Shown in pieces: positions 1,424 through 34,958 of a stretch of DNA of 41,985 bases. A program made the translations under genes and the position numbers. Numbering within the stretch: position 1 is the stretch's first letter; each line of letters begins with the position of its first letter. Location: positions 1 to 41,985 of the forward strand of contig JAIPBB010000007.1 of assembly GCA_021739805.1 (NCBI GenBank). Reading direction: 5' to 3'. Source of the DNA: Saprospiraceae bacterium. Lineage in GTDB: Bacteria > Bacteroidota > Bacteroidia > Bacteroidales > JAIPBB01. Below the pieces are notes generated by a model. That model was not told the DNA's origin. It saw only the letters and a program-made list of their open reading frames with translations, and did no database searches.

Positions 1424-3217
1424 TTATTTGAATCCCTTCTCCGCCGGAATTCCAATTATAAACTTTGTTCCGGTTTTTCCTTTTGATTTATCGTTATTGG
1501 ATTCAACGCTGATATTTCCTTTATGAATTTTGATTATTCCATAACAAACTGCTAAGCCTAAACCTTTCGCCTGCACTCCTTCTTTGGTTGAGAAAAATGG
1601 TTCAAAAAGCTTTTTGCGATTTGTTTCTGATATTCCACAACCATTATCTTCAACGGTGTAAATTATATCAGAGTCTATGTGAAATGCTGAAATATGAATT
1701 TCTCCTTTTCCGCTTGTGGCTTCAATTGCGTTTTTTATAAGATGTGAAAAAACATTTATCATTTGGGTTTCATCGATAAAAGCCGTTTGGGCTTCATCGC
1801 TAATATTGATTGAAATTTTGGTTTTATCAGGAATAATAAGCTCTTCAAGAATTTTATCAAACATTTTCTTATTATCAACTTTCTCAATATTAATTTCACT
1901 TTCACGGGCAAAATTCAATAAACCAGACATAATATCTTTTGTGCGCTTTGCTTGCGATTCAATTAATTCAACATCAATATAAGCCTGGGAATTTTCTTCT
2001 AGCTGCTCTTTTAAAAGTTCTGTGTGAAGCAAAATCACTCCAATTGGATTATTTACTTCATGAGCAATACCGGCAGACAACTGCCCCATATTTGCCATCT
2101 TTTGAGTGTGAGCCAAAGCTTCTTTTGCTGCATTTAGCTGAATATTCGATTTCTCAAGTTTTTCCAGAAAACTAAATAGATTTTTAGTTGTGTAAAAATA
2201 AACAATTACTGAAAGGGCAATTATTATAAGTATTGCGATGATTACAGATGAAAAAATTAACTCTTGTATTAAATCTTTTGTTTCTTCTTTTTCATTAATA
2301 CTGGCTGCAATATAAAGTTTGAAATCAGGAAAATAATCAAAAGCTACAATTTGTTCTCCATTGCTGTTTTCATCCTGATATCTTAGAATTCCATTTGTTT
2401 GCTCTGATGTAATTTCTTTTATAAAATCTTTATTGCTCCAGTTTTCACCTTCGGCTTTTGGGTGCATAATTATGTTGCCATCTTTATCAAAAACAAAAGG
2501 AAAACCACTTTCACCAATTTTAAGCTCGCTAATTATGCTTCGTAACTTGTCAAGGTCTTTTTCCTTACTTCCTACATATAAATTTCCAACAATTTTATTA
2601 TTATATTTTATTGGCTCGTAAGCAGTAATATACCAGGCATTTACAACAAATGCACGTCCAAAATACGTTTCACCTTTTCCTGTGGATTGGCTAACTTCCG
2701 AATAATTTGGAATGTATGTGAATATTGCTCTTTGGTTATTTTCATCTAAAACATTTGTTGATATTCTAACACAACCGCTATCAGATTTTTGGAAAATGGT
2801 AACAGTTCCACCAAGCATTGATTGAATTTTGTCAACGAATGAAAAATCATCAAGAAGCTCTTTATTATTCCACTTCCAGCTTTTTAATTTTGCAATATGC
2901 TTTTGCTTAGAAATTTGATTGGTAATTTCATGCTCCGACACAACATCTTCAATTATAAATTCTTTTGAGTAAAAATAATCATGAGCAACTTTTAAATCGG
3001 TTTTAACTTTATCAAGTTTAAGAGCCCTTTCTCTCTCAAACATTTTCATTATTGTTTTCACTTCGAGAGAAAGATTACTTTCCAATGATTCAGAAATATT
3101 CTTTTTCGAACGGTCAATAGAGAAATAGGTAATAATGGAAATAGTGATTATGATACCTATGAAAACAGGTAGGAATAGTTTGAATTTTACTGCTTGTTTC
3201 GACCAAAAGTTATTCAT
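1424..3217 (-). CDS. Cache-domain membrane sensor histidine kinase
   Basis: This 597-residue sensor kinase has a membrane segment at about 13-32, a large extracytoplasmic region at about 35-318 and a second segment at about 320-342. The outer region contains the block GETYFGRAFVVNAWYITAYE and a following VGNLYVG strand, typical of double Cache (Cache_3/Cache_2) ligand sensors. The transmitter follows: HisKA with phosphoacceptor His386 in SAGIAHEVNNP, an N box HLIKNAIEA, and G boxes DNGCGISE and KGLGLAV. There is no HAMP domain; a short coiled helix links membrane and kinase. It is the last gene of the hydrogen island, 173 bases after the receiver-kinase hybrid, and the gap holds a GTGCCTA repeat and a hairpin, so it may be transcribed separately. 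The ligand is unknown; Cache domains usually bind small organic molecules. Its transmitter resembles that of the hydrogenase-fused kinase at 4912 (AHE[VL]NNP[IL]GV), suggesting related partners. Confidence 0.9.
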   Translation of the reverse strand: MNNFWSKQAVKFKLFLPVFIGIIITISIITYFSIDRSKKNISESLESNLSLEVKTIMKMFERERALKLDKVKTDLKVAHDYFYSKEFIIEDVVSEHEITNQISKQKHIAKLKSWKWNNKELLDDFSFVDKIQSMLGGTVTIFQKSDSGCVRISTNVLDENNQRAIFTYIPNYSEVSQSTGKGETYFGRAFVVNAWYITAYEPIKYNNKIVGNLYVGSKEKDLDKLRSIISELKIGESGFPFVFDKDGNIIMHPKAEGENWSNKDFIKEITSEQTNGILRYQDENSNGEQIVAFDYFPDFKLYIAASINEKEETKDLIQELIFSSVIIAILIIIALSVIVYFYTTKNLFSFLEKLEKSNIQLNAAKEALAHTQKMANMGQLSAGIAHEVNNPIGVILLHTELLKEQLEENSQAYIDVELIESQAKRTKDIMSGLLNFARESEINIEKVDNKKMFDKILEELIIPDKTKISINISDEAQTAFIDETQMINVFSHLIKNAIEATSGKGEIHISAFHIDSDIIYTVEDNGCGISETNRKKLFEPFFSTKEGVQAKGLGLAVCYGIIKIHKGNISVESNNDKSKGKTGTKFIIGIPAEKGFK

Positions 3218-3259
3218 AAAAGTGCCTAAAGTAATTGAAGTGCCTAGAGTGCCTAGAGT
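3218..3259. repeat. GTGCCTA short dispersed repeat, copy 1
   Basis: Three GTGCCTA units in the context AGTGCCTA(A/G)AGT lie directly upstream of the Cache kinase start. The same units occur in the opposite orientation at 12858-12912. No coding potential is seen; it looks like an intergenic repeat family. Confidence 0.6.
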
Positions 3260-3345
3260 TTAAACAATAGCTCACTTCTCTTTTAAATCTAGAATTTCAA
3301 TCTTGGCAATTATACTAAAAATCTTTGAAAATTGAAGAATCTTTT

Positions 3346-3380
3346 TATTCGGGGCGAGACTTAAAGTCGCACTCCGAATA
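3346..3380. repeat. Imperfect hairpin between the receiver-kinase gene and the Cache kinase gene
   Basis: Outer arms TATTCGG and CCGAATA (7 bp, perfect) enclose a second stem GACT/AGTC. It lies just after the stop of the receiver-kinase gene at 3391. Read on the minus strand it is followed by A residues, not a U tract, so a processing or stability hairpin or a repeat element is more likely than an intrinsic terminator. Confidence 0.45.
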
Positions 3381-3390
3381 GACTAAATAT

Positions 3391-4509
3391 CTATTTTGGA
3401 AATTTAACAATAAACCTACTTCCAACATCAACTTTGCTTTCAACTGTAATTTCTCCGTGATTGCTTTCTACAAGTTTTTTTACAATTGACAAACCCAAAC
3501 CACTTCCGGTAATATTCTTGGTTTTTTCGTTCTTAATTCTGATAAAATCTTTAAACAGCTTTTCTATATCTTCTTCACTCATTCCAATTCCGGTATCTTC
3601 AACTTGGATTATTATTCCATCCTTTTTTGAGATGATTGAAACATTTACTTCTCCATCGTCTTTATTGTATTTTATAGCATTAGAAACCAGGTTGTTAAAA
3701 ATAATCTCAATTTCATCGGAGTCAGCTTTGATATAAACATTTTCATCAGTAATCAAATGAACTTTAATGTTTTTTTGAATTGCCATTGGCTCCATAGTGT
3801 CGATTGATAGCTGTGCAATTTCATTTAAATCAACCGATTTTATGTTTTGTGTTTTCTTGCCCGATTCTATTTTCGTAAGGTCAAGCATATCAAAAATAAG
3901 GCTTCTCATACCTTTGATTCGCTCAATCGAACGTTCAATCATTTTATCATAATCTTCAAGATTGTTCCCAACTTGCCGCGACTGCATGATTTTCAAATAT
4001 CCTTCAATTGCATTGATAGGTGATTTTAGTTCATGCGAAAGAACCGACAAAAACTGAAACCGAATTTGCTTTCCTTCGGTATTCATTTTCTTGGTCATTC
4101 TCTTTAGAAAAAGATGTTTTGTGATATTATCGATTGATGCCTTAAGCTCTTGAGGTGTGAATGGTTTTGGGACAAAATTATAAGCACCATTATTTGTAGC
4201 TTTTACAGCTAAATCCAATGAAGCATAAGATGTTATCATCATAACCTGGGTGTCATAATTTTTCTTGTTAATGTATTCCAAAACATCAATACCATAAATT
4301 CCAGGAAGTTTATTATCGAGCAAAATAATATCCATTTGCTCTTTATCAATTATTTCAATTGCCTGTTCACCTGTTGATGCTTCGATAATATCAAAGTTGA
4401 AATCTTCATCCATGAAAGGATAACTGACTGAATAATTTTGCAATATTCTGGTGATTCCCGAACGAATTCCGGGTTCATCATCAACGACTAAAATTTTTAA
4501 CTTTTCCAT
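3391..4509 (-). CDS. Receiver-histidine kinase hybrid (REC-HisKA-HATPase), soluble
   Basis: The 372-residue protein starts with a receiver domain: acidic pair Asp10-Asp11, phosphoacceptor Asp65 in ILLDNKLPG, and Lys115-Pro116 in VPKPFTP. A helical linker follows, then HisKA with His159 in LSVLSHELKSP and an HATPase with N box NNLVSNAIKYN and G2 box GSGLGLSIVKKL. There is no membrane segment or PAS domain, so it is a cytoplasmic kinase whose input is phosphorylation of its own receiver. This architecture normally makes a relay step between an upstream kinase and another regulator. The gene starts 2 bases after the lone receiver gene and 400 bases after the hydrogenase-fused kinase, so the three are surely co-transcribed; the likely input is phosphate from the hydrogenase-like sensor. 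The output partner is not identifiable from sequence. Confidence 0.9.
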   Translation of the reverse strand: MEKLKILVVDDEPGIRSGITRILQNYSVSYPFMDEDFNFDIIEASTGEQAIEIIDKEQMDIILLDNKLPGIYGIDVLEYINKKNYDTQVMMITSYASLDLAVKATNNGAYNFVPKPFTPQELKASIDNITKHLFLKRMTKKMNTEGKQIRFQFLSVLSHELKSPINAIEGYLKIMQSRQVGNNLEDYDKMIERSIERIKGMRSLIFDMLDLTKIESGKKTQNIKSVDLNEIAQLSIDTMEPMAIQKNIKVHLITDENVYIKADSDEIEIIFNNLVSNAIKYNKDDGEVNVSIISKKDGIIIQVEDTGIGMSEEDIEKLFKDFIRIKNEKTKNITGSGLGLSIVKKLVESNHGEITVESKVDVGSRFIVKFPK

Positions 4510-4511
4510 GA

Positions 4512-4907
4512 CTATAGTTTTAAAAGCTTGTTAATTTCTCTTTCAAGCTGGTCGGGGCGGATTCCTTTTTCAATAATTAAATCTGCTTTAATCCAGTTTT
4601 TACTTTCATCTGAATATAAATCGAAGGAAATTCCTGTTTCAGCTGTAACCGCAGTAGCAATTATTACCGGCACATCAGGGTATTTTTGTTTGATTTTGTA
4701 GCTTAAGATAAAGCCGCTATCCTGATTATCCATCATTAAATCAATTATTGCCAAATCCGGTCTTGTTTTTTCAATAATTTTTTCACATTCACTTTGGTTT
4801 TCGGCTGTTATGGTTTCATAACCTAAGTTTTTTACAATAATTTCAATTGCTGTTAATTGGTCAATATCATCATCTGCGATTAATATTTTACCTTTTATTT
4901 TTTCCAT
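4512..4907 (-). CDS. Stand-alone response regulator receiver domain with unusual beta4-beta5 segment
   Basis: A single receiver domain of 131 residues with acidic residues Asp12-Asp14 and phosphoacceptor Asp56 in LAIIDLMMDN; there is no output domain. After the beta4 strand (PVIIATAVTA) there is a longer than usual segment reading ESKNWIKADLIIEKG before the conserved Lys, and the Pro that normally follows this Lys is missing. The same W-x2-[AI]-D-x3-[EK]-K pattern occurs in the second receiver of the protein at 11511-12437, which suggests a shared specialised receiver subfamily in this island. The gene lies 4 bases after the hydrogenase-fused kinase and 2 bases before the receiver-kinase hybrid, so it is the natural first phosphate acceptor of the sensor, acting as a shuttle. 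That pairing is inferred from position. Confidence 0.88.
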   Translation of the reverse strand: MEKIKGKILIADDDIDQLTAIEIIVKNLGYETITAENQSECEKIIEKTRPDLAIIDLMMDNQDSGFILSYKIKQKYPDVPVIIATAVTAETGISFDLYSDESKNWIKADLIIEKGIRPDQLEREINKLLKL

Positions 4908-4911
4908 TTCT

Positions 4912-6894
4912 TTAAATATTTTGTGCTAGTACAATTTTAAAATTTGTTCCTGTAGGACCTTTTTTGGGATTTGCATTCGATTTCACATTAATTTGCCCAT
5001 TGTGCATTTTAACAATTCCATAAATCAAAGGCAAGCCCAAGCCGGTACCTTTTCCTGCTTCTTTTGTTGTGAAAAATGGAGTGAAAATCTTTTCCATATT
5101 TTCTTCTGAAATTCCAATTCCTGTATCCTGAATGTTTATTTCTACCGAGCCATTATTTTCTTCAAGAAAGATGCTTAACACACCACCCTTTGGCATTGCA
5201 TCAACTGCATTTTTCTCAAGATTTGTTAAAACCTGCATCATTTGATTTTGGTCAATCAGCAAGTTTGTATTTGTTAAATTTGAATTGAATTTTACGATAA
5301 TATTATCCGCTTTGATAATTGACGAAATACTATGTTCAACAAATTCAGCAATATTGGTCTTTTCAAGTTTTACCTGATTTTTTCGGGCAAAATTCAACAG
5401 TCCACCAACTATTTTCTTACATCTTTCGGTTTGTTCAACAATTAGTTTTAAATCTTCCCGGGTTGGATTGCTTTCAGGCATTTCATCCAGCAAAATATTG
5501 CTATACATAGTAATAACACCTAGCGGATTATTAAGTTCGTGGGCAATTCCTGCTGACAATTGACCCATGTGAGCAAGCTTTTCCGATTGTCGCAAAGCCA
5601 TTTGAGCATTTGCTAATTTTTCGTTCGAAATATTCAGGTCGCTAATAGAATTATGAAGCTTTTCGATGCTATAAGGCAAACACATTTCTGTTTCTGCAAG
5701 TCCTTCAACAATTGCTATTGCATGTTCTTCGCAAGTTGCATAGCCACAAGCACCACAATTCAAATGGTCAGTAATACTGGTTTTACCCATTTTTTTCAAA
5801 ACCTTATCGATTTCTTTCTTAGTTGGTTTTTCTATACGTCTGTCTTGTTGAGAAAAATGCTGTGAAAAATCTATGTGTTTAAATTCATCTATTTCGTTAT
5901 CCCATTTGATTTTATCAAGGTTTTCAATTTTGTCTTTTACGTAGTTTTTAATTTTTGTTCTTTTCTCAAAACGTGCTCCATCACTGCTCATTCCCGGCCC
6001 CATAATACAACCATCGCAGCATAATAATTCAAGATGATGATTTTTTAAGTCACCTGAATCAAACTCTTTTATTGCTTCTTTAAAATCTTCTTTTCCGTCA
6101 GCAACTATTATATTTCCTTTAATAAGGTCATCAGTTTTTTCGGTTGTTTGAAGCAAACCTCTGCTGATTGGAAAAATTGAGCCTTTTCCTGAAAATGGTG
6201 GGTCAAATTCTCTGGGTTTAACTTTTTCGGCTTTAATGTTTTTTTCCAAAAACAGTTTTCTAAGTTCCTTAAAAGTAATTGCTTCGTCAATCTCATCCGA
6301 TTCAGCTTTTTTTGCTATACAAGGACCAATAAACACTACTTTGTTATCAGCTCCATATTTTTCTTTTACAATTCTTGTGATTGCAACCATTGGCGAAGCA
6401 ATCGGAGCTAAAAAATCCACTAAATGAGGATAGTAATGTTCAACATAATATACAATTGCGGGGCAATCAGAAGAAATACAAGCCTTCCCTTTTTCGTCAT
6501 CAAGTAATTTTCGGTATTCTTTAGCGACAATATCCGCTCCAAAAGAAACCTCAACAACTTTATCGAAACCAAGTGCTTTTATCATTCCAACCACAACTTT
6601 ATAGTCGGATATTTCTTTAAATTCCGCCGGAAAACTGGGAGCAACGCAGGCAATAACTTTTTCGCCTGAATCAATCATTTGCATTACTTCAGATGTGGAA
6701 TCAAGAAAAATCTTAGCTCCCTGGCTGCAAACTTTCACACAATTACCACAACCAATGCACCTTTCGTTAATGACTTCAGCCTGTCCATTAATGATTTTTA
6801 TTGCTTTAACCGGACATTCTCTAACACAAGTATAACAAACCCTGCAACGATCTTTGAGAGTGAAAACAAGTTTATTTCTTTTATTGTGGCTCAT
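4912..6894 (-). CDS. hydS: [FeFe]-hydrogenase-like sensor fused to histidine kinase (HydS, group C1 type)
   Basis: A 660-residue cytoplasmic fusion. Domains in order: two [4Fe-4S] ferredoxin motifs (Cys17, 20, 23, 27 and Cys46, 49, 52, 56), an [FeFe]-hydrogenase H-cluster domain (about 75-340), a PF04060-type Fe-S motif (Cys380, 383, 388, 405), a short helix, HisKA with His452 in [11 protein letters not shown], and HATPase with GTGLGL. The four H-cluster ligands are present: Cys144 (SSDCP), Cys192 (GPCIAKK), Cys292 and Cys296 ([10 protein letters not shown]). However, the proton-shuttle Cys of the TSCCP motif is Asp143, and the Met of MPCxxK is Gly190, changes typical of sensory rather than catalytic enzymes. 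In established classifications this is a histidine-kinase-linked group C sensory hydrogenase. It is expected to sense H2 or redox state and to start a phosphorelay through the receiver (4512) and hybrid kinase (3391) directly downstream. It would need HydEFG maturation from elsewhere. No promoter motif was found upstream, where a repeat array lies. Confidence 0.92.
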
Positions 6895-6900
6895 TATTTT

Positions 6901-7266
6901 GTCATTAAGTTGTTATTAGTTGTCATTTGCTTCGCGTCATTAAGTTGTCATTTGCTTCGCGTCATTAAGTTGTCATTTACTTCGCGTCATTAAGTTGTCA
7001 TTTACTTCGCGTCATTATTTGTCATTTGCTTCGCGTCATTAAGTTGTCATTTACTTTGCGTCATTAAGTTGTCATTTGCTTCGCATCATTAAGTTGTCAT
7101 TTACTTCGCGTCATTAAGTTGTCATTTACTTTGCGTCATTAAGTTGTCATTTGCTTTGCGTCATTAGGTTGTCATTTGCTTTGCGTCATTAGGTTGTCAT
7201 TTGCTTCGCGTCATTAAGTTGTCATTAAGTTGTCATTCGGTAGTCATTCATTGTCATTAAGTAGTT
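6901..7266. repeat. Tandem array of about twelve 25-bp units between hydA and the sensor gene
   Basis: The unit is GTCATTAAGTT followed by GTCATTTGCTTCGC (11 + 14 bases), with substitutions of G to A, C to T and one 1-base-short copy near 7011-7020. About twelve copies are recognisable; the end near 7219-7266 degenerates into only the short GTCATT subunit. On the minus strand, the sense strand of the neighbouring genes, exact copies read GCGAAGC, a sequence known to form a very stable mini-hairpin in DNA. The array fills most of the 433-base gap after the hydA stop. No reading frame or promoter motif of its own is convincing. Confidence 0.9.
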
Positions 7267-7281
7267 ATTTATAGTTTAAGT

Positions 7282-7326
7282 TTCTTTCTTCTGACTTCCG
7301 ACTTCCGACTTCGGTCTTCCGACTTT
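7282..7326. repeat. GACTTCCGACTTC short dispersed repeat, copy 1
   Basis: A run of CTTCTGACTTCCGACTT-like units lies just after the hydA stop. Related units, arranged as an inverted pair, occur at 37230-37315. This looks like a dispersed intergenic repeat family; it has no U-rich tail that would make it a terminator for hydA. Confidence 0.6.
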
Positions 7327-7327
7327 T

Positions 7328-9052
7328 TTATAATAACACATCCCTTTGTCCATAATGAGTATGTAATAACTCATGACATTTATGACTTGCCGGTTTTCCA
7401 AGAAAATTATTATAGAGTTCAATTACTTCAGAGTTCTTATGTGAAACTTTAACCGTTCCGTTTTCATCAATTTTATAAAGAGACATCATTCTTGCTTTCA
7501 AATCTTCTTCGGTAGCACCAATATGTTGACCGCCGCCGCCAATACATCCTCCGGGACAAGCCATCACTTCAATAAAATGTATGTCGTTTCTACCGTTTTT
7601 AATTTCATCGAGTAGCTTTTTAGCGTTAGCCAAACCATTAACAACAGCAACACCTAATTCGAGTTCGCCAATTTTGATTTTAGCTTCCTTTCTGCCTTTA
7701 AGCCCACGAACTTCATTGATTTTAAATTTGAGAAGTTCTTTTCCTGTTAAAGTATTATAAGCAGTTCGGATTGCTGCTTCCATAACACCACCGCTTGCAC
7801 CGAATAATTTTCCGGCAGTACTTCTTTGTCCGTGTGGCGAATCAGCCATTTCGGGGTCAATATTTTGAATATCTATTCCATAAAGTCGGATAAGCTGACC
7901 AAATTCACGGGTGGTTAAAACCGCATCGACATCAGTAATTCCTTTATGAGTCATTTCTTCACGTTGTGCTTCGAATTTTTTAGCCGTGCAAGGCATAATT
8001 GAAACAGAATAAATATCTTTTGATTCCAGTCCTTCTCTTTCAGCAAAATATGTGTTAATGATTGCACCAAGCATTTGCTGAGGTGATTTGCAGCTCGAAA
8101 TATTTGGAATAAATTCGGGAACAAACTCTTCAGCATATTTTACCCATGCAGGGCAACAGCTTGTGATAAGCGGCAAATTCTCATTCTTTGTTATTCTATC
8201 TATTAATTCGGTTGATTCTTCGATTATTGTTAAATCTGCAGAAAAGGAAGTGTCGAAAACTTTATCGAAACCAATTTTTCTTAAAGCAGCATTCATAATT
8301 CCATTAATATCTTTCCCGGCTTCAATTCCAAATTCTTCGGCTAATGAAACTGAAATTGCAGGTGCGTATTGAACCACAACTGTTTTTGTTGGATTTTGCA
8401 AAGCTTGTAGAATTTCAGGAAAATGATTTATTTCTGATAATGCTCCCGTTGGGCAAACCATTATACATTGTCCGCAATTTACACAACTTGATGTGTTTAA
8501 ACCTTTATAAAACGAAGTTGAAACTGTAGATTTACTGCCACGATTAGCAAAGTCAATTGCTGAAACGCCCATTATTTCTTCGCAAACTCTAATACATCTT
8601 CCGCAAAGAATACATTTTTCGGGGTCTCGTTGAATACTTGCACTTGAAAGGTCGAGAGGCTGTTTTGTTTTAGGTCCCCTTATGTTTCTTTCTCTGATGT
8701 GTAATTCTTCTGCTAAATCCTGTAGTTCGCAATTTCTGTTTCTAACACAATACAAACAATCATCAGGATGATCGGATAAGAGCAATTCAACAATTGTTTT
8801 TCGGGCTTCAATTACTTTTGGAGTATGGGTTTTAATTTTCATTCCTTCATTAACAGGATATGAACAGGAAGTTACTAATTTACCTGTATCAACTTGTTCG
8901 ACAACACACATTCGGCAAGAGCCTGTTGGAACAAAGTTTTTCATATGGCATAATGTCGGAACCTTAATTCCATTTCGATTCAGTACATCCAATATGGTTT
9001 CTCCCATATGGGCTTCAACACTTTTGCTATTTATTTCTATCTGGAAACTCAT
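7328..9052 (-). CDS. hydA: [FeFe] hydrogenase catalytic subunit HydA (M3 type, NAD-linked trimer)
   Basis: This is the catalytic subunit that reversibly makes H2 from protons. The 574 residues contain an N-terminal [2Fe-2S] domain (Cys35, 46, 49, 63), a His-Cys3 [4Fe-4S] site (His95, Cys99, 102, 108), two ferredoxin clusters (Cys147, 150, 153, 157; Cys190, 193, 196, 200), the H-cluster domain and the C-terminal small-subunit-like tail (FLGKPASHKCHELLHTHY). H-cluster ligands are Cys300 (TSCCP), Cys355 (MPCTAKK), Cys499 and Cys503 (MACPGGCIGGGG). The proton path residues Cys299, Glu279, Glu282 and Ser319 are kept, so it should be active. Numbering is in register with Clostridium pasteurianum CpI. 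It is 16 bases after HydB and has no extra C-terminal [2Fe-2S] domain of the Thermotoga kind. With HydB and HydC it forms a cytoplasmic NAD(H)-linked, probably ferredoxin-bifurcating complex. Bifurcation is inferred from subunit make-up. Confidence 0.96.
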   Translation of the reverse strand: MSFQIEINSKSVEAHMGETILDVLNRNGIKVPTLCHMKNFVPTGSCRMCVVEQVDTGKLVTSCSYPVNEGMKIKTHTPKVIEARKTIVELLLSDHPDDCLYCVRNRNCELQDLAEELHIRERNIRGPKTKQPLDLSSASIQRDPEKCILCGRCIRVCEEIMGVSAIDFANRGSKSTVSTSFYKGLNTSSCVNCGQCIMVCPTGALSEINHFPEILQALQNPTKTVVVQYAPAISVSLAEEFGIEAGKDINGIMNAALRKIGFDKVFDTSFSADLTIIEESTELIDRITKNENLPLITSCCPAWVKYAEEFVPEFIPNISSCKSPQQMLGAIINTYFAEREGLESKDIYSVSIMPCTAKKFEAQREEMTHKGITDVDAVLTTREFGQLIRLYGIDIQNIDPEMADSPHGQRSTAGKLFGASGGVMEAAIRTAYNTLTGKELLKFKINEVRGLKGRKEAKIKIGELELGVAVVNGLANAKKLLDEIKNGRNDIHFIEVMACPGGCIGGGGQHIGATEEDLKARMMSLYKIDENGTVKVSHKNSEVIELYNNFLGKPASHKCHELLHTHYGQRDVLL

Positions 9053-9068
9053 TATTCTAATTCTTTAA

Positions 9069-11018
9069 CTATAAAACTGATATTGCATCAAACTTGCATG
9101 TTTCTTCACAGGTACCGCAACCAATACATTTATCTTCAATAATAAAATGTGGCTTTTTCTTTTCACCAATTATGGCATTTGTCGGACACTTTTTAACACA
9201 GGCAGTGCAGCCGGTACATTTATCAATATCAATAGTAAATGTTCTTAAATCTGTACAAACTCCTGCAGGGCATTTTCTTTCAAAAATATGCTGTTCATAC
9301 TCTTCTCTAAACCATTTCAACGTACTTAAAACAGGATTTGGAGCTGTTTGTCCAAGCCCGCAAAGAGAGGTTTCTTTAATTACTCTGCCAAGTTTTTCAA
9401 GTTGAAGTATTCCCTTAAACCTTTCAAGAGCTTCGGATTTTGTTTCTTTGCTCGGTCGGTGAGTGATGCTTTGAAGTATTTCAAGCATTCTTTTAGTCCC
9501 TTCACGACAAGGAATACATTTCCCACAGCTTTCTCTTTGAATGAAATCCATAAAAAACTTCGCAACATCAACCATGCATGTATCTTCGTCCATAACAACT
9601 AAACCACCTGAGCCCATCATTGCACCAACTTCAATTAAGTTTTGGTAATCAATTGCTATATCAAGATTTGCTTCTGTAATACAACCACCTGAAGGACCGC
9701 CAATTTGAACTGATTTAAACTTTTTGCCATTCGGAATTCCTCCACCCATTTTGAAAACAATATCTCTAACAGTTGTTCCCATTGGGATTTCGATAAGACC
9801 GGTATATTTCACTTTTCCTGATAAGGCAAAAACTTTTGTTCCTTTGCTGCTTTCGGTTCCAATTGAGGCAAACCAATTTTCACCTTTTTCAAATATTTCA
9901 GGAATATTAGATAAAGTTTCAACATTATTAATAATGGTTGGCTTTCCGAATAATCCGCTAACAGCTGGAAAGGGTGGTCGTGGGCGAGGCATTCCCCTCA
10001 TTCCTTCAATGCTATTTATTAAGGCTGTTTCTTCACCGCAAACGAAAGCACCCGCACCTTTTTTGATAATGAAATTTAAACTAAAATCAGAACCAAAAAT
10101 TCTCTCACCTATTAATCCATAGTTTTTTGCTTGTTCAATGGCTATTGTTAATCTTTCAATAGCTAATGGGTACTCAGCTCTGATGTACACATAAGCAACC
10201 GAAGCACCGATAGCATAAGCACCGATTGCCATACCCTCAAGCAATCTGTGAGGATCTCCTTCGATTACCGCTCTATCCATGAACGCACCCGGATCACCCT
10301 CATCTGCATTGCAAATCAGGTACTTTTGATTGCTTTTTTCATTGTAAGCAAATTTCCACTTTCGTCCGGTGAGGAAGCCTCCACCGCCTCGCCCTCTCAG
10401 ACCACTCTGTTCAACTAAATCACAAACATTTTTGGAGGAGTTTGTTTTAATTGTTTTAATGAAATTCTTATAACCGCCGCCGGCAATATATTCTTCAATG
10501 CTTACAGGGTTTATTATTCCACAGTTTTTTAGAACTAATCTTTTTTGTTGAGCAAAAAATTGATGCTCATCAAGAAATGGAATATTTTCCCAAACTTCTT
10601 TGTCATCAGTTCTGAACTGTGCAAGAGTATTTTCTAATTTAATTGTATTTTTAAAAGCATCATCAAGAATTTCTTCAACTTTATCTGAAGTGACATGTTG
10701 AAATGAAATCCTGTTTTTATTTGGAAATTGGATGTCGAGTAATGGTTCTGCTGAACAAAACCCAATACAACCAATCTGAATTATTTCCGCATCAATATTG
10801 TTTTTCTCTAGATAAGCCTGAGTTTCAATTAATGTTTTTTTTGCACCGGCACCCAAACCACAGGTTCCGGCACCAATAAGAATTACAGGCTTATCATTTT
10901 TTTCTCTTCTGATTATAGATAGTTCTTTTTCAACTTCTTTATCGTAAGAGCTTGTCTCGTAATTCTCTAAAATATTCTTTATTAGAAATTCCTTTATGTT
11001 GTTTTTAGTTTTCATCAT
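9069..11018 (-). CDS. hydB: NAD-linked hydrogenase subunit HydB (NuoF-like, FMN and NADH binding)
   Basis: This is the flavin subunit that exchanges electrons between NAD(H), FMN and iron-sulfur clusters. Domains: N-terminal thioredoxin-like segment, NuoF core with FMN/NADH motifs (SGLRGRGGGGFLTG, NADEGDPGAFMDR, GAGAFVCGEETALI), SLBB region, a [4Fe-4S] site (ESCGKCIPC plus SLCGLG), a CPAGVC pair, and a C-terminal two-cluster ferredoxin (CTGCTACVKKCP, CIGCGTCEETC). The first Cys of the N-terminal [2Fe-2S] site (C-x4-C in Thermotoga HydB) is replaced: the segment reads ILIGAGTCGLG, leaving three Cys. The frame stays open to an ATT or other weak start near 11054, but the ATG pair at 11018/11015 beside the HydC stop (11005) gives a short coupled overlap and is preferred. 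It lies between HydC and HydA in one operon. Length (about 649) fits the HydB/HndC family. Confidence 0.95.
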   Translation of the reverse strand: MMKTKNNIKEFLIKNILENYETSSYDKEVEKELSIIRREKNDKPVILIGAGTCGLGAGAKKTLIETQAYLEKNNIDAEIIQIGCIGFCSAEPLLDIQFPNKNRISFQHVTSDKVEEILDDAFKNTIKLENTLAQFRTDDKEVWENIPFLDEHQFFAQQKRLVLKNCGIINPVSIEEYIAGGGYKNFIKTIKTNSSKNVCDLVEQSGLRGRGGGGFLTGRKWKFAYNEKSNQKYLICNADEGDPGAFMDRAVIEGDPHRLLEGMAIGAYAIGASVAYVYIRAEYPLAIERLTIAIEQAKNYGLIGERIFGSDFSLNFIIKKGAGAFVCGEETALINSIEGMRGMPRPRPPFPAVSGLFGKPTIINNVETLSNIPEIFEKGENWFASIGTESSKGTKVFALSGKVKYTGLIEIPMGTTVRDIVFKMGGGIPNGKKFKSVQIGGPSGGCITEANLDIAIDYQNLIEVGAMMGSGGLVVMDEDTCMVDVAKFFMDFIQRESCGKCIPCREGTKRMLEILQSITHRPSKETKSEALERFKGILQLEKLGRVIKETSLCGLGQTAPNPVLSTLKWFREEYEQHIFERKCPAGVCTDLRTFTIDIDKCTGCTACVKKCPTNAIIGEKKKPHFIIEDKCIGCGTCEETCKFDAISVL

Positions 11019-11487
11019 TCCCGACATTATTTTCAAGATTTCTGTAACTCTCAATGATTTCTTTTAATGATTCAGATGTTACTTTTGCATAGAATTCACC
11101 GTTAATAGCAATAACAGGTGCCAGACCACAAGCTCCGATACAGGCAACCACTTCAATACTAAAAAGTCCATCACGAGAAGTTTGACCTGCCTTAATATTC
11201 AGGTTTTTTTCTACTTCTTTTAAAACAGTTGATGAGCCTAAAACATGACATGCTGTTCCCCGACAAACTTGTATATTATATTTCCCTTGAGGGATAAAGC
11301 GAAACTGGTTGTAAAAAGTGGCAACACCAAAGATCTTGCTGGTTGAAAGTCTAAGGTGTTTGCCAATTTTAATAACTGCCTCTTCTGATATAAATCCATC
11401 CTTTTCCTGAACTTCCTGGAGAATTGGGATAAGATATTCTCGCTTAGCATTTGGGAAGTTTTTTATTATTTCTTCAACATTATTCAT
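11005..11487 (-). CDS. hydC: NAD-linked hydrogenase subunit HydC (NuoE-like [2Fe-2S] protein)
   Basis: A 160-residue NuoE-type protein, the small electron-transfer subunit of the trimeric hydrogenase. It has an N-terminal helical region (about 1-65, with the family stretch GVATFYNQF) and a thioredoxin-like [2Fe-2S] domain with ligands Cys75 and Cys80 (VCRGTACHVLG) and Cys116 and Cys120 (VVACIGACGLAP). This is the normal full complement and normal length. It is the first structural gene of the hydrogenase set: 23 bases after the double-receiver gene, and its stop overlaps the start region of HydB, so translation is probably coupled. The subunit works with HydB at the NAD(H) site. It could also be annotated HndA or HymA; the gene order C-B-A and the companion sensors make hydC the best name. 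Confidence 0.95.
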   Translation of the reverse strand: MNNVEEIIKNFPNAKREYLIPILQEVQEKDGFISEEAVIKIGKHLRLSTSKIFGVATFYNQFRFIPQGKYNIQVCRGTACHVLGSSTVLKEVEKNLNIKAGQTSRDGLFSIEVVACIGACGLAPVIAINGEFYAKVTSESLKEIIESYRNLENNVGNDEN

Positions 11488-11510
11488 AACAAAAGAAATT
11501 AAATTATTTT

Positions 11511-12437
11511 TTACTTAAGGTGTTTCCTGATTTCAGGTAAAATCACTGCTGCGTCAACCGGTTTTTTGATGAATCCATCAATTGGTAACCAAATTGATTT
11601 TCCGTTTTCGGCTCTATAGTCAATTCCGGCTGCACCGTTAAATTCTTCTTGTATTAAAAGCACTTGAAGTTCTTTGTAAGATGGGTCTTTACGGAACTCA
11701 TGAGCCATTCCCTGAACATTTGAATTGTTTGTTTTCAATACATCTATTGAAGATTGAATTAAAACAGGCATATTTTTGAAAGCTTTGTCAAGAGCTAATT
11801 CTTTTGCCATTTCGAAACCTTCGTAATGAGTTGTCATCATTACATCAAGTATTGCTAAATCAGGTTTTAAAGTTCTTGCTTTTTCAAGACCTTCGTTTTT
11901 ATCATTAGCGGTAAATACTTCATAATGTTCTTTTTCAAGAATTGTTTGAAGGATGGTGATAACATCAACGTCATCATCTACGATTAAAATTTTCTTTTTT
12001 TCCATGACTTTAAATTTTAGAGGGTTTTTATTTATTATTGATTTTATTTCTTCGGAGAAAAAACATTCCCCGTTTGGATTCATAATTATTTCTTCAATTA
12101 CTTTATAGTTGTCTCTGAACTTTGAAAGATAGCCTTTGGCTCCTGCATTATACATTCCTTCGATATATTCAATGTTTTCAAAGGAGGAAAAAGCAATAAT
12201 TTTCAAAGAAGGATGAGTTTTCATTGCTTGTCTTGCAGCTGTAATTCCATCAATTCCCGACATTTGAATATCAAGAAAAACCAAGTCGGCTTCAATTGTA
12301 TTAATTGTGTCAAGAAATTCTTCTCCACTTGTTAGTTCAGCAACTATTTCAACATTTTCAAACTGTAAAAGAACATCTCGCAACCCTATTCTGAAGTATT
12401 TGTTGTTATCGACTAATATGACTTTAGTTGGGTTCAC
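11511..12437 (-). CDS. Double-receiver response regulator (NarL-type REC joined to a second REC), no HTH
   Basis: The 308-residue protein holds two receiver domains. The first (about 1-125) is NarL-like with phosphoacceptor Asp56 (VFLDIQMSG) and ends in ECFFSEEI, the same linker that in the neighbour at 12907 (NYFSEEF) leads to a LuxR HTH. Here the HTH is absent and a second receiver starts at Met145 (MEKKKILIVDDD), with Asp198 (LAILDVMM), a roughly 55-residue insertion after beta4 and Lys291-Lys292-Pro293 (WLPIDGFIKKP). The start is GTG at 12437; an in-frame stop just upstream leaves no other choice except CTG. Met145 at 12005 could also give the second domain alone. It sits at the head of the hydrogenase operon, 23 bases before HydC. 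A role as phosphate sink, shuttle or protein-binding adaptor is inferred; it cannot bind DNA by a known domain. Confidence 0.88.
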   Translation of the reverse strand: MNPTKVILVDNNKYFRIGLRDVLLQFENVEIVAELTSGEEFLDTINTIEADLVFLDIQMSGIDGITAARQAMKTHPSLKIIAFSSFENIEYIEGMYNAGAKGYLSKFRDNYKVIEEIIMNPNGECFFSEEIKSIINKNPLKFKVMEKKKILIVDDDVDVITILQTILEKEHYEVFTANDKNEGLEKARTLKPDLAILDVMMTTHYEGFEMAKELALDKAFKNMPVLIQSSIDVLKTNNSNVQGMAHEFRKDPSYKELQVLLIQEEFNGAAGIDYRAENGKSIWLPIDGFIKKPVDAAVILPEIRKHLK

Positions 12438-12460
12438 GATTTTCAGAGTTTTTGTTGATT

Positions 12461-12468
12461 CAAAAGTA
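12461..12468 (-). promoter_or_regulatory. Candidate -7 promoter element for the double-receiver/hydCBA operon
   Basis: On the minus strand this reads TACTTTTG, an exact match to the Bacteroidota -7 consensus TAnnTTTG, 23 bases before the GTG start. No good -33 TTTG is found at the usual distance, which would fit an activator-dependent promoter. Confidence 0.45.
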
Positions 12469-12515
12469 TATCAGCTTAGCGATGTGGTTTAGAGGTAAAC
12501 ACACAATTACAAATA

Positions 12516-12529
12516 GGGTGAAAACACCC
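12516..12529. promoter_or_regulatory. Candidate operator dyad 1 upstream of the hydrogenase operon
   Basis: GGGTGAAAACACCC is a perfect 5-bp dyad (GGGTG-N4-CACCC). It lies about 65 bases upstream of the start point expected from the -7 element at 12461-12468, a position usual for an activator. A related dyad lies at 12691-12709. The LuxR-type regulator encoded next door is the obvious candidate ligand, by inference. Confidence 0.5.
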
Positions 12530-12690
12530 GTTTTCCTGAATAAAGCATAAGATAACCAGCAACTTAGAAATAGAATAAGCAGTAAATAATTTTCAAAAAA
12601 AATAACACTAAAATTCCATTCAACTCAATTTGAGTTTATTACAAAAAAGAAAATTTAAAGAAAATTGAAAATAATTTGAAATTATTTTTG

Positions 12691-12709
12691 ATAGGGTGTT
12701 TTCACCTAT
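12691..12709. promoter_or_regulatory. Candidate operator dyad 2 upstream of the hydrogenase operon
   Basis: ATAGGGTGTTTTCACCTAT has the same GGTG-N4-CACC core as the dyad at 12516, with ATAGG/CCTAT arms. A half-site GGGTGTTTT follows at about 12720-12728. The rest of the gap 12438-12906 (469 bases) is very AT-rich and shows no convincing gene, apart from the repeat at its far end. Confidence 0.5.
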
Positions 12710-12857
12710 GGGAAATTGTGGGTGTTTTAACTGTAATATTGAGATTATAGGTGTCAAAAATTGTTGATGCTATACACATTTTGCATCTATCTTTAGTTTC
12801 TTGTTGCTTTTTTGAATTTTGAACAAGGATTAACGATTTTTGATTTAAGAAGTTGGT

Positions 12858-12912
12858 GTTGCAATAACTCCAGGCACTCCAAACTTTAGGCACTCTAGGC
12901 ACTTCGCTAGGC
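12858..12912. repeat. GTGCCTA short dispersed repeat, copy 2
   Basis: On the minus strand three GTGCCT(A/G) units occur in series, inverted relative to the copy at 3218-3259. The repeat touches the last codons and TAG stop of the LuxR-type regulator gene. Confidence 0.6.
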
Positions 12913-13545
12913 TTTAATCAACCCATGCTGAATCGCATACATCACCAGATTTGGAGCATTTTTGGCTCCGGTTTTATCAAATAATCTTCCACGGTGTCCA
13001 TCAACTGTTCTTTGACTGATTCCAAGTTCTTTTGAAATATCATTATTTGAATAGCCTTTGCAGATCATTTCCAAAACTTCCATCTCTCTTTCGGAAAGAA
13101 CAACAGGACATTCTTTTTGATTTGACCTGTTTCTGCGATTAACATTACTAATAAATTCTTCTGAAAAGTAATTATCGCCTTCCATCACATTAATAATGGC
13201 TTTTTCGAGTTCATCTTTAGTAGTCTTTTTTAGAAGAAATCCTTCGGCACCGGCATCAATCATTTTATTGAAATATCCTATTTCTTCGTGCATAGTCAAA
13301 GCAATTATTTTAAGATTGGGATATTTTGTCATTGCTTTTTTTGTTGCTTCAATGCCATCCATTATTGGCATTTTAATATCCATTAGAACAACATCAATAT
13401 CGTTGTTTTTCAAAACATCAAAAAACTCAAAACCATTTGATGCTTCGGCGATTACTTTAACATTACCGATTTCGTCAAGAATGGTTCTTAGCCCTTTTCG
13501 GAAAATAATATGGTCGTCAACGATTGCAATTTTAACTATATTCAT
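12907..13545 (-). CDS. NarL/LuxR-family response regulator, the only DNA-binding regulator of the hydrogen island
   Basis: A 212-residue two-domain regulator. Receiver: acidic Asp10-Asp11, phosphoacceptor Asp56 in VLMDIKMPIMDG, and the conserved Lys in FLLKKTT. The linker contains DNYFSEEF. The C-terminal LuxR helix-turn-helix (about 146-212) has the family hallmarks LSEREMEVLEMICKG and SNNDISKELGISQRTVDGH. It starts 2 bases after the membrane kinase at 13548, so the two form a classical HisKA_3 kinase/NarL regulator pair. It is followed by a 469-base gap with two dyads, then by the hydrogenase operon. It is the only protein in the island with a known DNA-binding output, so it is the best candidate to control hydCBA. 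Targets are inferred from position. The stop codon lies in a dispersed GTGCCTA repeat, which may have altered the last residues. Confidence 0.93.
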   Translation of the reverse strand: MNIVKIAIVDDHIIFRKGLRTILDEIGNVKVIAEASNGFEFFDVLKNNDIDVVLMDIKMPIMDGIEATKKAMTKYPNLKIIALTMHEEIGYFNKMIDAGAEGFLLKKTTKDELEKAIINVMEGDNYFSEEFISNVNRRNRSNQKECPVVLSEREMEVLEMICKGYSNNDISKELGISQRTVDGHRGRLFDKTGAKNAPNLVMYAIQHGLIKA

Positions 13546-13547
13546 AA

Positions 13548-14507
13548 TTATTGATTTTCAGTAAGACTTACTTTTAACAAAACCGACATGCCTTTTTCAG
13601 GATGGCTTTTCATGTCGATTTCACCGTTAATAGTTTTTGCTTTATGATAGATATTATTGATACCTAAACCACTATTTGCTTTTCTTGCTTCATTAATATC
13701 GAACCCTTTTCCATCATCTTCAAAAGTAAAACGAATTTCCGAATCGTCATTTTCCAATTTAACAGAAATATTATTTGCCGAAGCATGTTTAAGTGTGTTG
13801 TTAATTAATTCTTTGGTGATTTGATATAAAATTGCTTCGATAAAATCAATATTTTCAATCTTATAGTTTTCAGTATCAACAGAAATATTCATTGATTTTG
13901 TTTCATTAATATAATTACAAAACTCTTTAATTGCTGCAGAAAGACCGAAATCATGCAGAATATTTGGCATTATATTATAAGAAAGTTCTTTGGTTACTGT
14001 TATCGCATTATTAACCAATTCATCAATATTGCTAATGATTTTTTCACTTTTTATTTTTTGATAATCTCCCTTTTTAATTAAATCTGTATATAATTTAATT
14101 GTTGAAAGTATTGGACCAAGTCCATCGTGCAAGTCGGCAGCAAATTTTTTACGGTCTTTTTCTTCAGTATTTATGATTGCAGCCAGAACTTGTCTTTCAG
14201 AAGAAAGGCGTTCTTTTTCTGCTTGTTTTAGTGTATGAAATACTTCTCCCATTCTTGCTACTCCAATAATAATTAGAATTGTAGAAACAATTCCAAAAAC
14301 AACTGCAATTAGTGAAATTTCGTGATGAGTTTTATCTGTAAAAAATAACATTAGTTCATAAACTCGTTTTACTACAATAAAGAATAATCCTATTGAGACT
14401 AAAATCCATGAAATTCGTGCCTTTGCTAAAGGAATTAATCTTAAAGCAAGTATTGCTGCAATTAATTGAAGAACAACTGATATAATAAGAAAAACGGAAA
14501 TATACAT
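13548..14507 (-). CDS. Membrane sensor histidine kinase, NarX/LiaS type (HisKA_3)
   Basis: A 319-residue kinase with three predicted membrane segments (about 4-24, 33-54 and 62-84) and almost no extracytoplasmic loop, so it probably senses something in the membrane or receives its signal from a partner. A coiled helix (about 88-112) leads to HisKA_3 with phosphoacceptor His127 in KKFAADLHDGLGP, and to an HATPase domain with N box KELINNTLKHA and G motif DDGKGFD. This subfamily normally phosphorylates NarL/LuxR-type regulators, and such a gene lies 2 bases downstream. The start ATG at 14507 is 16 bases from a TAnnTTTG element. It is the first gene of the minus-strand hydrogen island and is divergent from the RDD gene at 14669. 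Confidence 0.92.
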   Translation of the reverse strand: MYISVFLIISVVLQLIAAILALRLIPLAKARISWILVSIGLFFIVVKRVYELMLFFTDKTHHEISLIAVVFGIVSTILIIIGVARMGEVFHTLKQAEKERLSSERQVLAAIINTEEKDRKKFAADLHDGLGPILSTIKLYTDLIKKGDYQKIKSEKIISNIDELVNNAITVTKELSYNIMPNILHDFGLSAAIKEFCNYINETKSMNISVDTENYKIENIDFIEAILYQITKELINNTLKHASANNISVKLENDDSEIRFTFEDDGKGFDINEARKANSGLGINNIYHKAKTINGEIDMKSHPEKGMSVLLKVSLTENQ

Positions 14508-33456: not shown

Positions 33457-33873
33457 ATGAGCAACCTATTTTCATTATCAGAAGCCTCGTCAATTGCGAT
33501 TCATAGCATGGCTTTGATAGCTAATACCGAGAAGCAACTTAACGTAAAAACTATGGCAGAGATGACTGGCTTTTCACGAAACCATATGGCAAAAGTGCTT
33601 CAAACTTTAGTACGATACAATTTTCTAAGCTCAACAAGGGGACCGGCAGGTGGATTTAAATTAATTAAAGAGCCTAAGGAAATTTCATTATTAGAAATTT
33701 ATGAAACTATTGAAGGTAAGCTTACCAATGAACCTTGTATTAAAAAAGTTGATTGCCCATTTGAAAACTGTGTTTTTGGTGGAATCACTTCTAAACTAAC
33801 TGAAGAGTTCAAAGTATTTTTTAGTAATAGAATGCTAAGTGATTTATTGTTAAAGAAAGATGAAACGAATTAG
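33457..33873 (+). CDS. Rrf2 family iron-sulfur transcriptional regulator
   Basis: A 138-residue Rrf2-type winged-helix repressor: LSEASSIAIHSMALIAN, then the DNA-binding part VKTMAEMTGFSRNHMAKVLQ and the wing STRGPAGGFKL. Three cysteines, Cys94, Cys100 and Cys105 (C-x5-C-x4-C), follow the dimer helix, in the spacing range of IscR and NsrR cluster ligands. It should therefore carry a [2Fe-2S] or [4Fe-4S] cluster and react to NO, O2 or iron. It heads the operon with a ferredoxin-like gene (48 bases later) and Hcp, a protein that handles NO and hydroxylamine. I infer an NsrR-like role; IscR-like is possible. The promoter carries an overlapping dyad. Confidence 0.9.
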   Translation: MSNLFSLSEASSIAIHSMALIANTEKQLNVKTMAEMTGFSRNHMAKVLQTLVRYNFLSSTRGPAGGFKLIKEPKEISLLEIYETIEGKLTNEPCIKKVDCPFENCVFGGITSKLTEEFKVFFSNRMLSDLLLKKDETN

Positions 33874-33921
33874 AGTTAGACTCCGATTAATTTGAATAAT
33901 TAAAAAAACTAAAACTTTAAG

Positions 33922-34878
33922 ATGAAAAGAGATATAATTAAAATTGATGAAGAACTTTGCAATGGTTGTGGTATTTGTGTACCTAATTGCCACGAAGGAG
34001 CTTTGCAAATAATTGATGAAAAAGCCAGACTAATCAGCGATTTAATGTGTGATGGATTAGGAGCATGCATTGGACATTGCCCTGAAGGAGCTATAACCAT
34101 TGAACAAAGAGAAGCTGTTCCTTATGATGAAATTGCTGTGATTACAGATATGGTTAGTAAAGGTAGAAATACAATTATTGCTCACTTACAACATTTGAAA
34201 GAACATAATGAAGTTGATTTTTTCAAACAAGGTGTTCAATATCTGGAACAAAATAGAGCTAATCTGCCTTTTGACTTAGATGATGTTAAGCATCATGTTC
34301 ACAATATGATTAAACCCAATAAAAATAACTTGTCCGACAATCGGCGGATAGAAACTAAAACTGTAAAAATGGAAAAAGGAAGTGCATGCGGAGGGGCTTG
34401 CCCGGGCTCAGCCACAATAGATTTTAAAATAGATATAGATAAAGTACAAGGACAAAATAGTAGTAATCAATCAGCAGCAGTTGTTGCCAATGCAATATCA
34501 GAATTAAAGCAATGGCCAGTGCAGCTACATTTGGTTAGTCCACAAGCTAGCTATTTTAAAAATGCCGATGTTGTTCTTGCAGCTGATTGTGTTGCATTTT
34601 CAATGGGAAATTTTCATAGTGAATTTTTAAAAGGCAGAAGTTTAGCTATTGCCTGCCCTAAACTGGATTCAAACGTGGAAGTTTATATTGAAAAACTCAC
34701 TTCAATGATTGAAAACTCCAAAATTAACACATTAACAGTTGTAATGATGGAAGTTCCTTGTTGTGGCGGTCTTTTACAAATGGCAAAAATTGCATTGAAA
34801 AATTCAAGCAGAAAAATTCCGATTAAACAAGTTGTTATTGGAATTCAAGGAAATATTTTATCTGAAGATTGGGTGTAG
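33922..34878 (+). CDS. Ferredoxin-like Cys-rich protein upstream of Hcp, probable Hcp electron donor
   Basis: A 318-residue protein. The N-terminal ferredoxin module has one normal [4Fe-4S] motif (Cys13, 16, 19, 23) and a second motif with one Cys missing (Cys43, Leu46, Cys49, Cys53 in MCDGLGACIGHCPEG), which would suit a [3Fe-4S] or Asp-ligated cluster (Asp44 is near). A helical middle (70-135) is followed by a C-terminal domain with further cysteines: CGGACPGS (156-163), AADCVAF (Cys223), ACPKLDS (Cys245) and VPCCGG (Cys280-281). I know of no crystal structure for this tail. It lies between the Rrf2 regulator and hcp (80 bases before hcp), the place that hcr occupies in enterobacteria, so electron supply to Hcp is inferred. 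It is found with hcp in other anaerobes. Confidence 0.82.
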   Translation: MKRDIIKIDEELCNGCGICVPNCHEGALQIIDEKARLISDLMCDGLGACIGHCPEGAITIEQREAVPYDEIAVITDMVSKGRNTIIAHLQHLKEHNEVDFFKQGVQYLEQNRANLPFDLDDVKHHVHNMIKPNKNNLSDNRRIETKTVKMEKGSACGGACPGSATIDFKIDIDKVQGQNSSNQSAAVVANAISELKQWPVQLHLVSPQASYFKNADVVLAADCVAFSMGNFHSEFLKGRSLAIACPKLDSNVEVYIEKLTSMIENSKINTLTVVMMEVPCCGGLLQMAKIALKNSSRKIPIKQVVIGIQGNILSEDWV

Positions 34879-34958
34879 GTTAAAATTCCAAATAAACCAT
34901 TGGAAAACATAGTAAAGTAGAATAATATTATTATTAATAAATAAAAAAAGTTAAAATT

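Follow-up and report, generated by a model that had tools for sequence, protein, structure and literature searches.

A conserved hydrogenase-kinase, receiver and receiver-kinase set beside an NAD-linked [FeFe] hydrogenase of Bacteroidales, with candidate promoter partners that differ among lineages

The window analysed here, that is, the whole stretch of 41,985 nucleotides from a Saprospiraceae bacterium (assembly GCA_021739805.1, contig JAIPBB010000007.1), carries between positions 1,424 and 14,507 an island of ten genes, all on the minus strand, in which signalling proteins surround hydCBA, the genes of an NAD-linked [FeFe] hydrogenase. Comparison with related loci exposed the order HydA-HydS-REC1-RECHK, i.e. 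the catalytic subunit, a sensory hydrogenase fused to a histidine kinase (HydS), a stand-alone receiver (REC1) and a receiver-controlled histidine kinase (RECHK), which recurs beyond chance in nearly all of 175 loci. The core trio of HydS, REC1 and RECHK travels with the main hydrogenase in many Bacteroidales, and the genes linked to the promoter are exchanged around it. Gene order, exchange patterns and receiver types favour a reading, towards which we lean slightly, of two control modules around one hydrogenase: a constant HydS cascade (module A) and an exchangeable promoter module (module B).

The comparison set comprised 175 HydS-kinase loci, window included, after merging at 97% identity. 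The first scan kept the best 80 of at least 569 relatives, mostly metagenome-assembled genomes of Bacteroidales/Bacteroidetes with HydS 58–68% identical; genome searches added 23 loci, then 29 new ones and then one (a family-level search of one genome, uninformative), and 80 further regions, 78 of them around HydS, were added as part of the places found in genome searches. As the loci were picked by HydS likeness, the core counts describe HydS-kinase loci, not genomes at large, and each count uses only loci with enough flanking DNA (for example, 5.2 kb upstream, n = 134). The closest HydS relatives (P0002 and P0003, 80–81% identical to the window HydS) have neighbourhoods outside the locus set, and in the order of G001, HydS matches reach E 1e-100 or better in 154 of 393 genomes, the kinase-less HydS2 described below being counted among them.

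REC1 directly follows HydS in 168/171 testable loci, a receiver-kinase lies within 2.2 kb of HydS in 164/168, and HydA is upstream of HydS in 158/170, the twelve loci without it including some with a cut locus or reading frame; HydB and HydC were observed in 129/134 and 127/134 loci with 5.2 kb upstream. The median gaps are 18 bases (HydA-HydS), 16 (HydS-REC1) and 12 (REC1-RECHK), and the close spacing claimed for the window by an earlier, sequence-only reading was borne out, with 4 bases between HydS and REC1 (4908-4911) and 2 between REC1 and RECHK (4510-4511). That reading had also proposed a conserved set beside hydCBA; its HydS-REC-RECHK part was found in nearly all of the 175 loci, and its remaining member, a Cache kinase, in no other listed locus. 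A published description of the HydS-receiver-receiver-kinase set was not found among the titles, abstract openings and passages covered, most subscription papers lying outside the search. Among distant relatives (HydS 41–45% identical; 18/296 genomes in the phylum of G001), NtrC-type regulators were ruled out as third genes, all six examined starting as REC-PAS-HisKA (these being cut by the locus end); such genes in full, in L201-L208, encode 492–513 aa. In the distant loci L203-L206 and L208, a further REC1-like receiver (123–127 aa) and NuoE/NuoF-like genes come after the receiver-kinase.

The features of the island and of its promoter are as follows.

13548..14507, minus strand: HisKA_3 (NarX/DesK-type) membrane kinase, with Pfam HisKA_3 and HATPase_c; sensor part of membrane helices only
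12907..13545, minus strand: LuxR/NarL-type response regulator, Response_reg and GerE
12694..12707: dyad, GGGTGTTTTCACCT on the plus strand; candidate operator of the LuxR-type regulator
12516..12529: dyad, GGGTGAAAACACCC on the plus strand; candidate operator, also with a weak terminator-like hairpin score
11511-12437, minus strand: REC-REC protein, whole, two receiver domains
12018..12437, minus strand: REC-a half of REC-REC, GacA/MctR/NarL-type receiver, no output domain
11511..12008, minus strand: REC-b half of REC-REC, DVU0259/DivK-like receiver; its position 5' of hydC defines class I
11005..11487, minus strand: HydC, NuoE-like [2Fe-2S] subunit (PF01257)
9069..11054, minus strand: HydB, NuoF-like FMN/NAD subunit with C-terminal 2x[4Fe-4S] (PF01512, PF10589, Fer4)
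7328..9052, minus strand: HydA, catalytic [FeFe] hydrogenase (PF02906, PF02256; NF040763 above cut-off)
6918..7226: 25-base tandem repeat array in the hydA-hydS gap, 12.4 copies
4912..6894, minus strand: HydS, 2x[4Fe-4S], H-cluster domain, [4Fe-4S] (PF04060), HisKA and HATPase_c, no PAS (Pfam)
4512..4907, minus strand: REC1, stand-alone receiver (Pfam)
3391..4509, minus strand: RECHK, receiver-controlled histidine kinase with D65 and H159 (Pfam and structure model)
1424..3217, minus strand: Cache kinase, Cache_3-Cache_2 sensor and HydS-like HisKA core (Pfam)

Pfam agreed with the inventory drawn up from the letters alone, namely four kinases (the HisKA kinases HydS, Cache kinase and RECHK, and the HisKA_3 membrane kinase), five receivers spread over four proteins, and GerE as the sole output domain, found in 12907-13545 alone among the island proteins. 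The NAD-linked character claimed for the hydrogenase was likewise upheld, HydA scoring 809 bits against a cut-off of 765 for the NCBIfam family 'NADH-dependent [FeFe] hydrogenase, group A6', and NuoE- and NuoF-type subunits complete a trimeric NAD-linked HydABC. The C-terminal 2x[4Fe-4S] of HydB is a bifurcation-linked feature, and the family name of HydA reads NADH-dependent A6. The listed TTG start of HydB overlaps hydC, and the true start may lie farther downstream.

The loci were observed in two ARRANGEMENTS: among the 134 loci with 5.2 kb upstream, REC-b stands ahead of hydC in 52 (class I, which includes the window), a divergent second sensory hydrogenase, HydS2, is found in 53 (class II), while 11 carry HydS2 behind a small open reading frame, 16 have neither in reach and 2 have something else; REC-b and HydS2 occur together in 0/134. 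Rex lies downstream of RECHK in 44/46 class II and 0/46 class I loci with 2.6 kb there, hydG in 15/46 and 29/46, respectively, and genes best matching the LuxR regulator (at any length) were found in 30/52 class I and 0/53 class II loci. HydS2 of L012 exhibits hydrogenase and Fe-S domains and no kinase, and its neighbour is SpoIIE. Class II loci (e.g., L012:2379-5438) thus present a kinase-less second sensory hydrogenase and a SpoIIE phosphatase divergent from hydCBA, with Rex downstream, so that a single locus carries two putative H2 sensors. Across 107 loci, the split between the classes falls on one branch for HydA, HydB and RECHK, and HydS needs four changes, at least three of them well supported; as the split is mostly a single branch, core exchange between the classes is at most rare, and the idea that the HydS core shuffles freely among the hydrogenase classes was rejected. 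The promoter comparison took in as many as 430 bases ahead of the REC genes from each of 54 class I loci (22,430 bases) and the HydS2-hydC interval from 64 class II loci (33,964 bases). Rex-like sites with at most two mismatches occur in 50/64 class II promoters (dinucleotide shuffles 3.9), and in 8/21 class I promoters with an orthologue of the LuxR regulator and 11/33 without (shuffles 1.4 and 1.4). Rex was rejected as regulator of the window, where the best promoter-near site has three mismatches and 32 sites stand against 33.3 expected.

In the window, the promoter module would consist of the HisKA_3 kinase and the LuxR-type regulator, which form a NarX/NarL-type pair of a HisKA_3 kinase beside a REC-GerE regulator, 2 bases apart. 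The same adjacency was observed in several relatives, in G001 on a contig other than that of the hydrogenase. The relatives' kinases beside the LuxR-type gene are Cache-PAS-HisKA_3 or PAS-HisKA_3, whereas the window kinase has neither Cache nor PAS and displays three membrane-like stretches by crude hydropathy; it is the probable partner of the regulator. Two exact GGTGN4CACC dyads lie in the 468 bases before REC-REC, and they are the only two in 41,985 bases, with 0.04 expected. The pattern RGGTRN4YACCY occurs in 9/14 class I loci with a LuxR orthologue (at least 58% identical) in the locus (dinucleotide-shuffle mean 0.04), in 4/40 other class I loci and in 0/64 class II loci. A LuxR protein search of the 40 genomes returned seven orthologues (58–72% identical, the range of the orthologues overall) and otherwise matches of at most 51%, and all four dyads fall within the seven. 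Pooled, the dyad is found in 13/21 class I promoters with a LuxR orthologue versus 0/33 without (Fisher 1.8e-7), and in 4/7 versus 0/33 where the LuxR gene is outside the fetched locus (3.8e-4). In G001, the dyad stands at the hydrogenase promoter though the LuxR gene and a Cache-PAS-HisKA_3-like kinase are on another contig than HydS; in G372, G476 and G626, three of the seven, the LuxR gene shares the contig with HydS but lies beyond the examined stretch. These patterns suggest that the hydrogenase promoter, where the earlier reading had placed the LuxR-type regulator, is the probable site of its action, through the candidate dyads.

That reading further had the signals from H2 and from the membrane kinase converge on this regulator, and here the comparison speaks against it. 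HydS is kept in 33 of the 54 class I genomes without a LuxR orthologue, REC1 and RECHK following it in all but L016 (contig end), and nine tested class II genomes have LuxR paralogues of at most 50% identity or none; the comparison thus does not support one funnel ending in the LuxR regulator. The wiring in which all four kinases feed one relay ending on the LuxR-type regulator, with one transcriptional output, would suit the facts that the island encodes no other DNA-binding protein, that candidate operators stand in the hydrogenase promoter, and that REC-REC joins a NarL-type to a DivK-type receiver and could bridge the modules here; we judge it improbable, as the regulator-free genomes just mentioned argue against it and the receiver types differ. 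Among NCBIfam models, whose best scores all stayed below cut-off, the LuxR regulator and REC-a come closest to GacA/MctR, REC1 and REC-b to DVU0259/DivK, and the RECHK receiver to NosR/LuxO/AtoC. In REC-b, a long stretch separates the conserved Ser from the conserved Lys. The counterparts of REC-a in relatives occur by themselves or in fusions: a NarL-type receiver of either form precedes REC-b in 11/21 genomes with a LuxR orthologue and 7/33 others, and REC-a/REC-b-type fusions occur in 5/54 class I loci, window included. A histidine phosphotransfer (HPt) domain was not found in the ten island proteins at E 0.001, so a kinase cascade fits better than a multistep His-Asp-His-Asp phosphorelay.

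HydS, at the head of the proposed cascade, contains an H-cluster domain (PF02906, E 4e-49) whose cysteines are highly conserved, C144 and C192 being invariant in the 174/174 sequences with a residue there and C293 and C296 in 175/175. The C-terminal [4Fe-4S] cysteines (C380, C383, C388 and C405) and the kinase residues (H452, N562 and the checked residues of the glycine box) are likewise present in 175/175. The four ligand cysteines, and PF04060 followed by HisKA/HATPase_c, place HydS with the group C type, and conservation points to C293 rather than C292 as the H-cluster ligand. Group C sensory enzymes have a PAS domain after the [4Fe-4S] cluster, according to PMC13104023; a PAS domain was not found in HydS by Pfam, which is why we class it as a HydS-like, kinase-linked enzyme rather than a standard PAS-bearing member of group C. 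Its L3 motif (residues 292-296) is CxGC, one residue shorter than the CPGGC of HydA, with residue 292 variable (for HydS2, the search pattern for the counterpart matched 39/62). The position of the proton-transfer cysteine is occupied by Asp143 (6466-6468), with Asp in 151/157 close relatives, and by Pro, Ala or Ser, never Asp, in the 17 distant HydS with a residue there; at this position, PMC10055695 reports Cys for 17% of sensory sequences and Ala for about 43%. In the HydS model (mean pLDDT 74), which resembles [FeFe] hydrogenases and ZraS in structure search, a long helix (406-471) joins the Fe-S domain to the kinase with low confidence.

On the main reading, H2 would change the signalling output of HydS. 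In a possible but doubtful alternative, HydS would be a sensor of redox state or of CO/O2 instead of H2, with Fe-S loss or electron flow through HydABC setting the kinase activity. The C-terminal [4Fe-4S] cluster of a group D relative, unresponsive to H2 in the account of PMC13104023, would agree with this, as would the CxGC motif and the changed proton-transfer residue; the invariant H-cluster cysteine positions argue the other way, and PMC10055695 names Asp as the exception among the Cys substitutions that ruin activity in prototypical enzymes, by analogy with which the natural Asp143 may keep a working proton path.

The phosphorylation sites of the partners are equally well preserved, with RECHK D65 in 163/164 loci and H159 in 164/164, REC1 D56 in 170/170 and REC-b D198 in 53/54, with one gap. 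RECHK exhibits the LvrB-type architecture, a REC-DHp-CA order with intact receiver and kinase residues. Its model (mean pLDDT 79.7, lower near the phosphoacceptor helix) shows a single helix (119-176) running from the last helix of the receiver into the phosphoacceptor helix, and LvrB (8vc9) was the top Foldseek match over the full length, at a global TM of 0.36 that is low because the domains are placed differently. The kinase of LvrB is switched on once an upstream kinase phosphorylates its receiver (PMC13269768, as far as that account was consulted), and from this resemblance the preferred reading of HydS-RECHK is a kinase cascade gated by H2, in which receiver phosphorylation would activate RECHK autophosphorylation.

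In the proposed mechanism, HydS would sense H2 or its redox consequence at the H-cluster, and the signal would pass through the C-terminal [4Fe-4S] region and the helix to the kinase core (H452). Phosphate from HydS would then reach the RECHK receiver (D65) and switch its kinase (H159) as in LvrB, and RECHK and/or HydS would charge REC1 (D56) and, in class I, REC-b (D198). As REC1 and REC-b have no DNA-binding part, the output of module A is probably protein contact, which might be with the hydrogenase, a kinase or a regulator elsewhere, and it is probably not the LuxR regulator. The more specific proposal, that the H2-gated kinase-to-kinase cascade acts post-translationally on the hydrogenase complex through the stand-alone receivers, independently of the lineage-swapped LuxR pair or Rex, is offered tentatively, as less likely than not. 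Control of transcription by module A through a response regulator encoded elsewhere and phosphorylated by RECHK, as LvrB does with LvrC, is conceivable, though we would not expect it; the LvrB precedent (PMC13269768, again for the part consulted) and the lack of a DNA-binding output in the conserved core would accord with it, whereas REC1 is the nearer target, beside the kinases in 168/171 loci. In the two-module reading, module B would bring the HisKA_3 kinase and the LuxR regulator to the hydrogenase promoter via the RGGTRN4YACCY dyads, with REC-a (NarL-type) as a competitor or phosphate sink, and in other lineages Rex, and HydS2 with the SpoIIE phosphatase, would operate around the same core.

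Several results weigh against the two-module reading. REC1 is missing from L050, L144 and L172, and RECHK from L144, L172, L194 and L197, of which L194 and L197 keep REC1. In the phylum of G012 (locus L050, Spirochaetia), whose 247 genomes gave ten full-length HydS-kinase matches (43–61%), one HydS-kinase fragment and eight genomes with a kinase-less relative only, the trio is often incomplete, because three loci show HydS-RECHK but no REC1, and in five neither partner was seen within about 1.5 kb. A mutual-information test with average product correction (APC) of the kinase-receiver interface, at positions which we take to be those of HK853-RR468, gave no usable signal, since each of the six pairs stayed at 0.05 or above on at least one of the two measures (RECHK with its own receiver came lowest, at 0.032 on one of them, and RECHK with REC-b gave 0.065 on both). 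With kinship allowed for, the independent dyad pairs (4.3 concordant, 0 discordant, 1.7 tied; median p 0.125) all point one way, yet they are unable to reach significance. The dyad pattern was derived from these same promoters, its strict form is absent in 8/21 orthologue genomes, a related pattern genome-wide exceeds controls about twofold (82 versus 43 sites in nine genomes; 17 versus 20 in one genome), one dyad (12516..12529) scores as a weak terminator-like hairpin, and the calls of LuxR absence rest on genomes of uncertain completeness. Finally, since Rex-like sites occur in 19/54 class I promoters, the promoter modules do not strictly exclude each other where their sites are concerned.

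The Cache kinase was not seen at this place in the other loci listed, nor in L075-L080, many loci ending soon after RECHK. Its kinase half matches at HydS (38–43%) in 9/9 genomes searched, and its core aligns with that of the window HydS over 262 residues without gaps at 39%. In six of the nine genomes, the Cache half finds its match (44–51%) in a kinase some 700 residues long, the other three giving none at E 1e-40; this kinase is beside a LuxR-type gene in five of the six, and in G524 about 9 kb from one. The Cache kinase therefore looks like a chimera of the Cache sensor of a LuxR-partner kinase and a HydS-like kinase core, and the simplest reading, with the closest kin outside the comparison, is that a Cache sensor moved from the promoter module to a HydS-like kinase. 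In the window lineage it could provide an extra input to module A.

A hydrogenase-like sensor drives a kinase controlling hydrogenase genes in HupUV/HupT/HupR and HoxBC/HoxJ/HoxA, which differ from the present system in a [NiFe] sensor, a separate kinase and an NtrC-type output on DNA; HupR turned up as a match in the receiver comparison. Group C1 [FeFe] enzymes, 'histidine kinase-linked (putative)' in the HydDB account (PMC5037454), similarly tie an H-domain enzyme to histidine kinase signalling, but here the kinase is fused, PAS is lacking and HydS stands in a fixed trio with REC1 and RECHK, of which the consulted part of that account makes no mention. The group C3 'BfuT' of Hydrogenedentota (PMC11406978) has a kinase domain, and its HydS-kinase gene lies beside a trimeric A3/BfuABC hydrogenase; the main text mentions no receiver or receiver-kinase, the supplementary figures being outside the comparison. 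LvrA/LvrB/LvrC, as presented in the consulted part of PMC13269768, share the order of upstream kinase, REC-DHp-CA kinase and receiver partner and the same full-length architecture, although the upstream sensor here is a hydrogenase and identity is 17–19%. The HydS of Thermotoga maritima and the group C enzyme of Ruminococcus albus (PMC10055695, PMC6776011) are putative H2 sensors co-encoded with a catalytic hydrogenase, and the putative phosphatase subunit in R. albus parallels the class II HydS2-SpoIIE pair; these sensors are PAS-linked, with no kinase core mentioned in the consulted sections of the two papers, and T. maritima HydS has Ala where the window HydS family has Asp. The [FeFe] HydABC operon of Caldithrix abyssi has a Rex gene and a Rex-like site, as in class II, and the consulted part of PMC5317091 describes no HydS core there.

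Elsewhere in the island, the hydA-hydS gap spans 433 bases against the median of 18 in relatives and consists mostly of the 25-base repeats (93% matches), a 7-base repeat at 7288-7325 together with that array filling most of it. Farther along the window, genes for an Rrf2-type regulator, an Fe-S protein and a hybrid-cluster-protein-like product, recognised by eye only, are consecutive at 33457-36611.

Signal transmission by sensory [FeFe] hydrogenases is described as unresolved in the consulted parts of PMC13104023 and PMC11406978. The recurrent trio names likely partners of a fused hydrogenase-kinase, which makes the step from H2 to phosphate directly assayable, and the dyad provides a concrete candidate operator. 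That lineages swap promoter modules while the core stays constant suggests that promoter control can be separated from H2 sensing.

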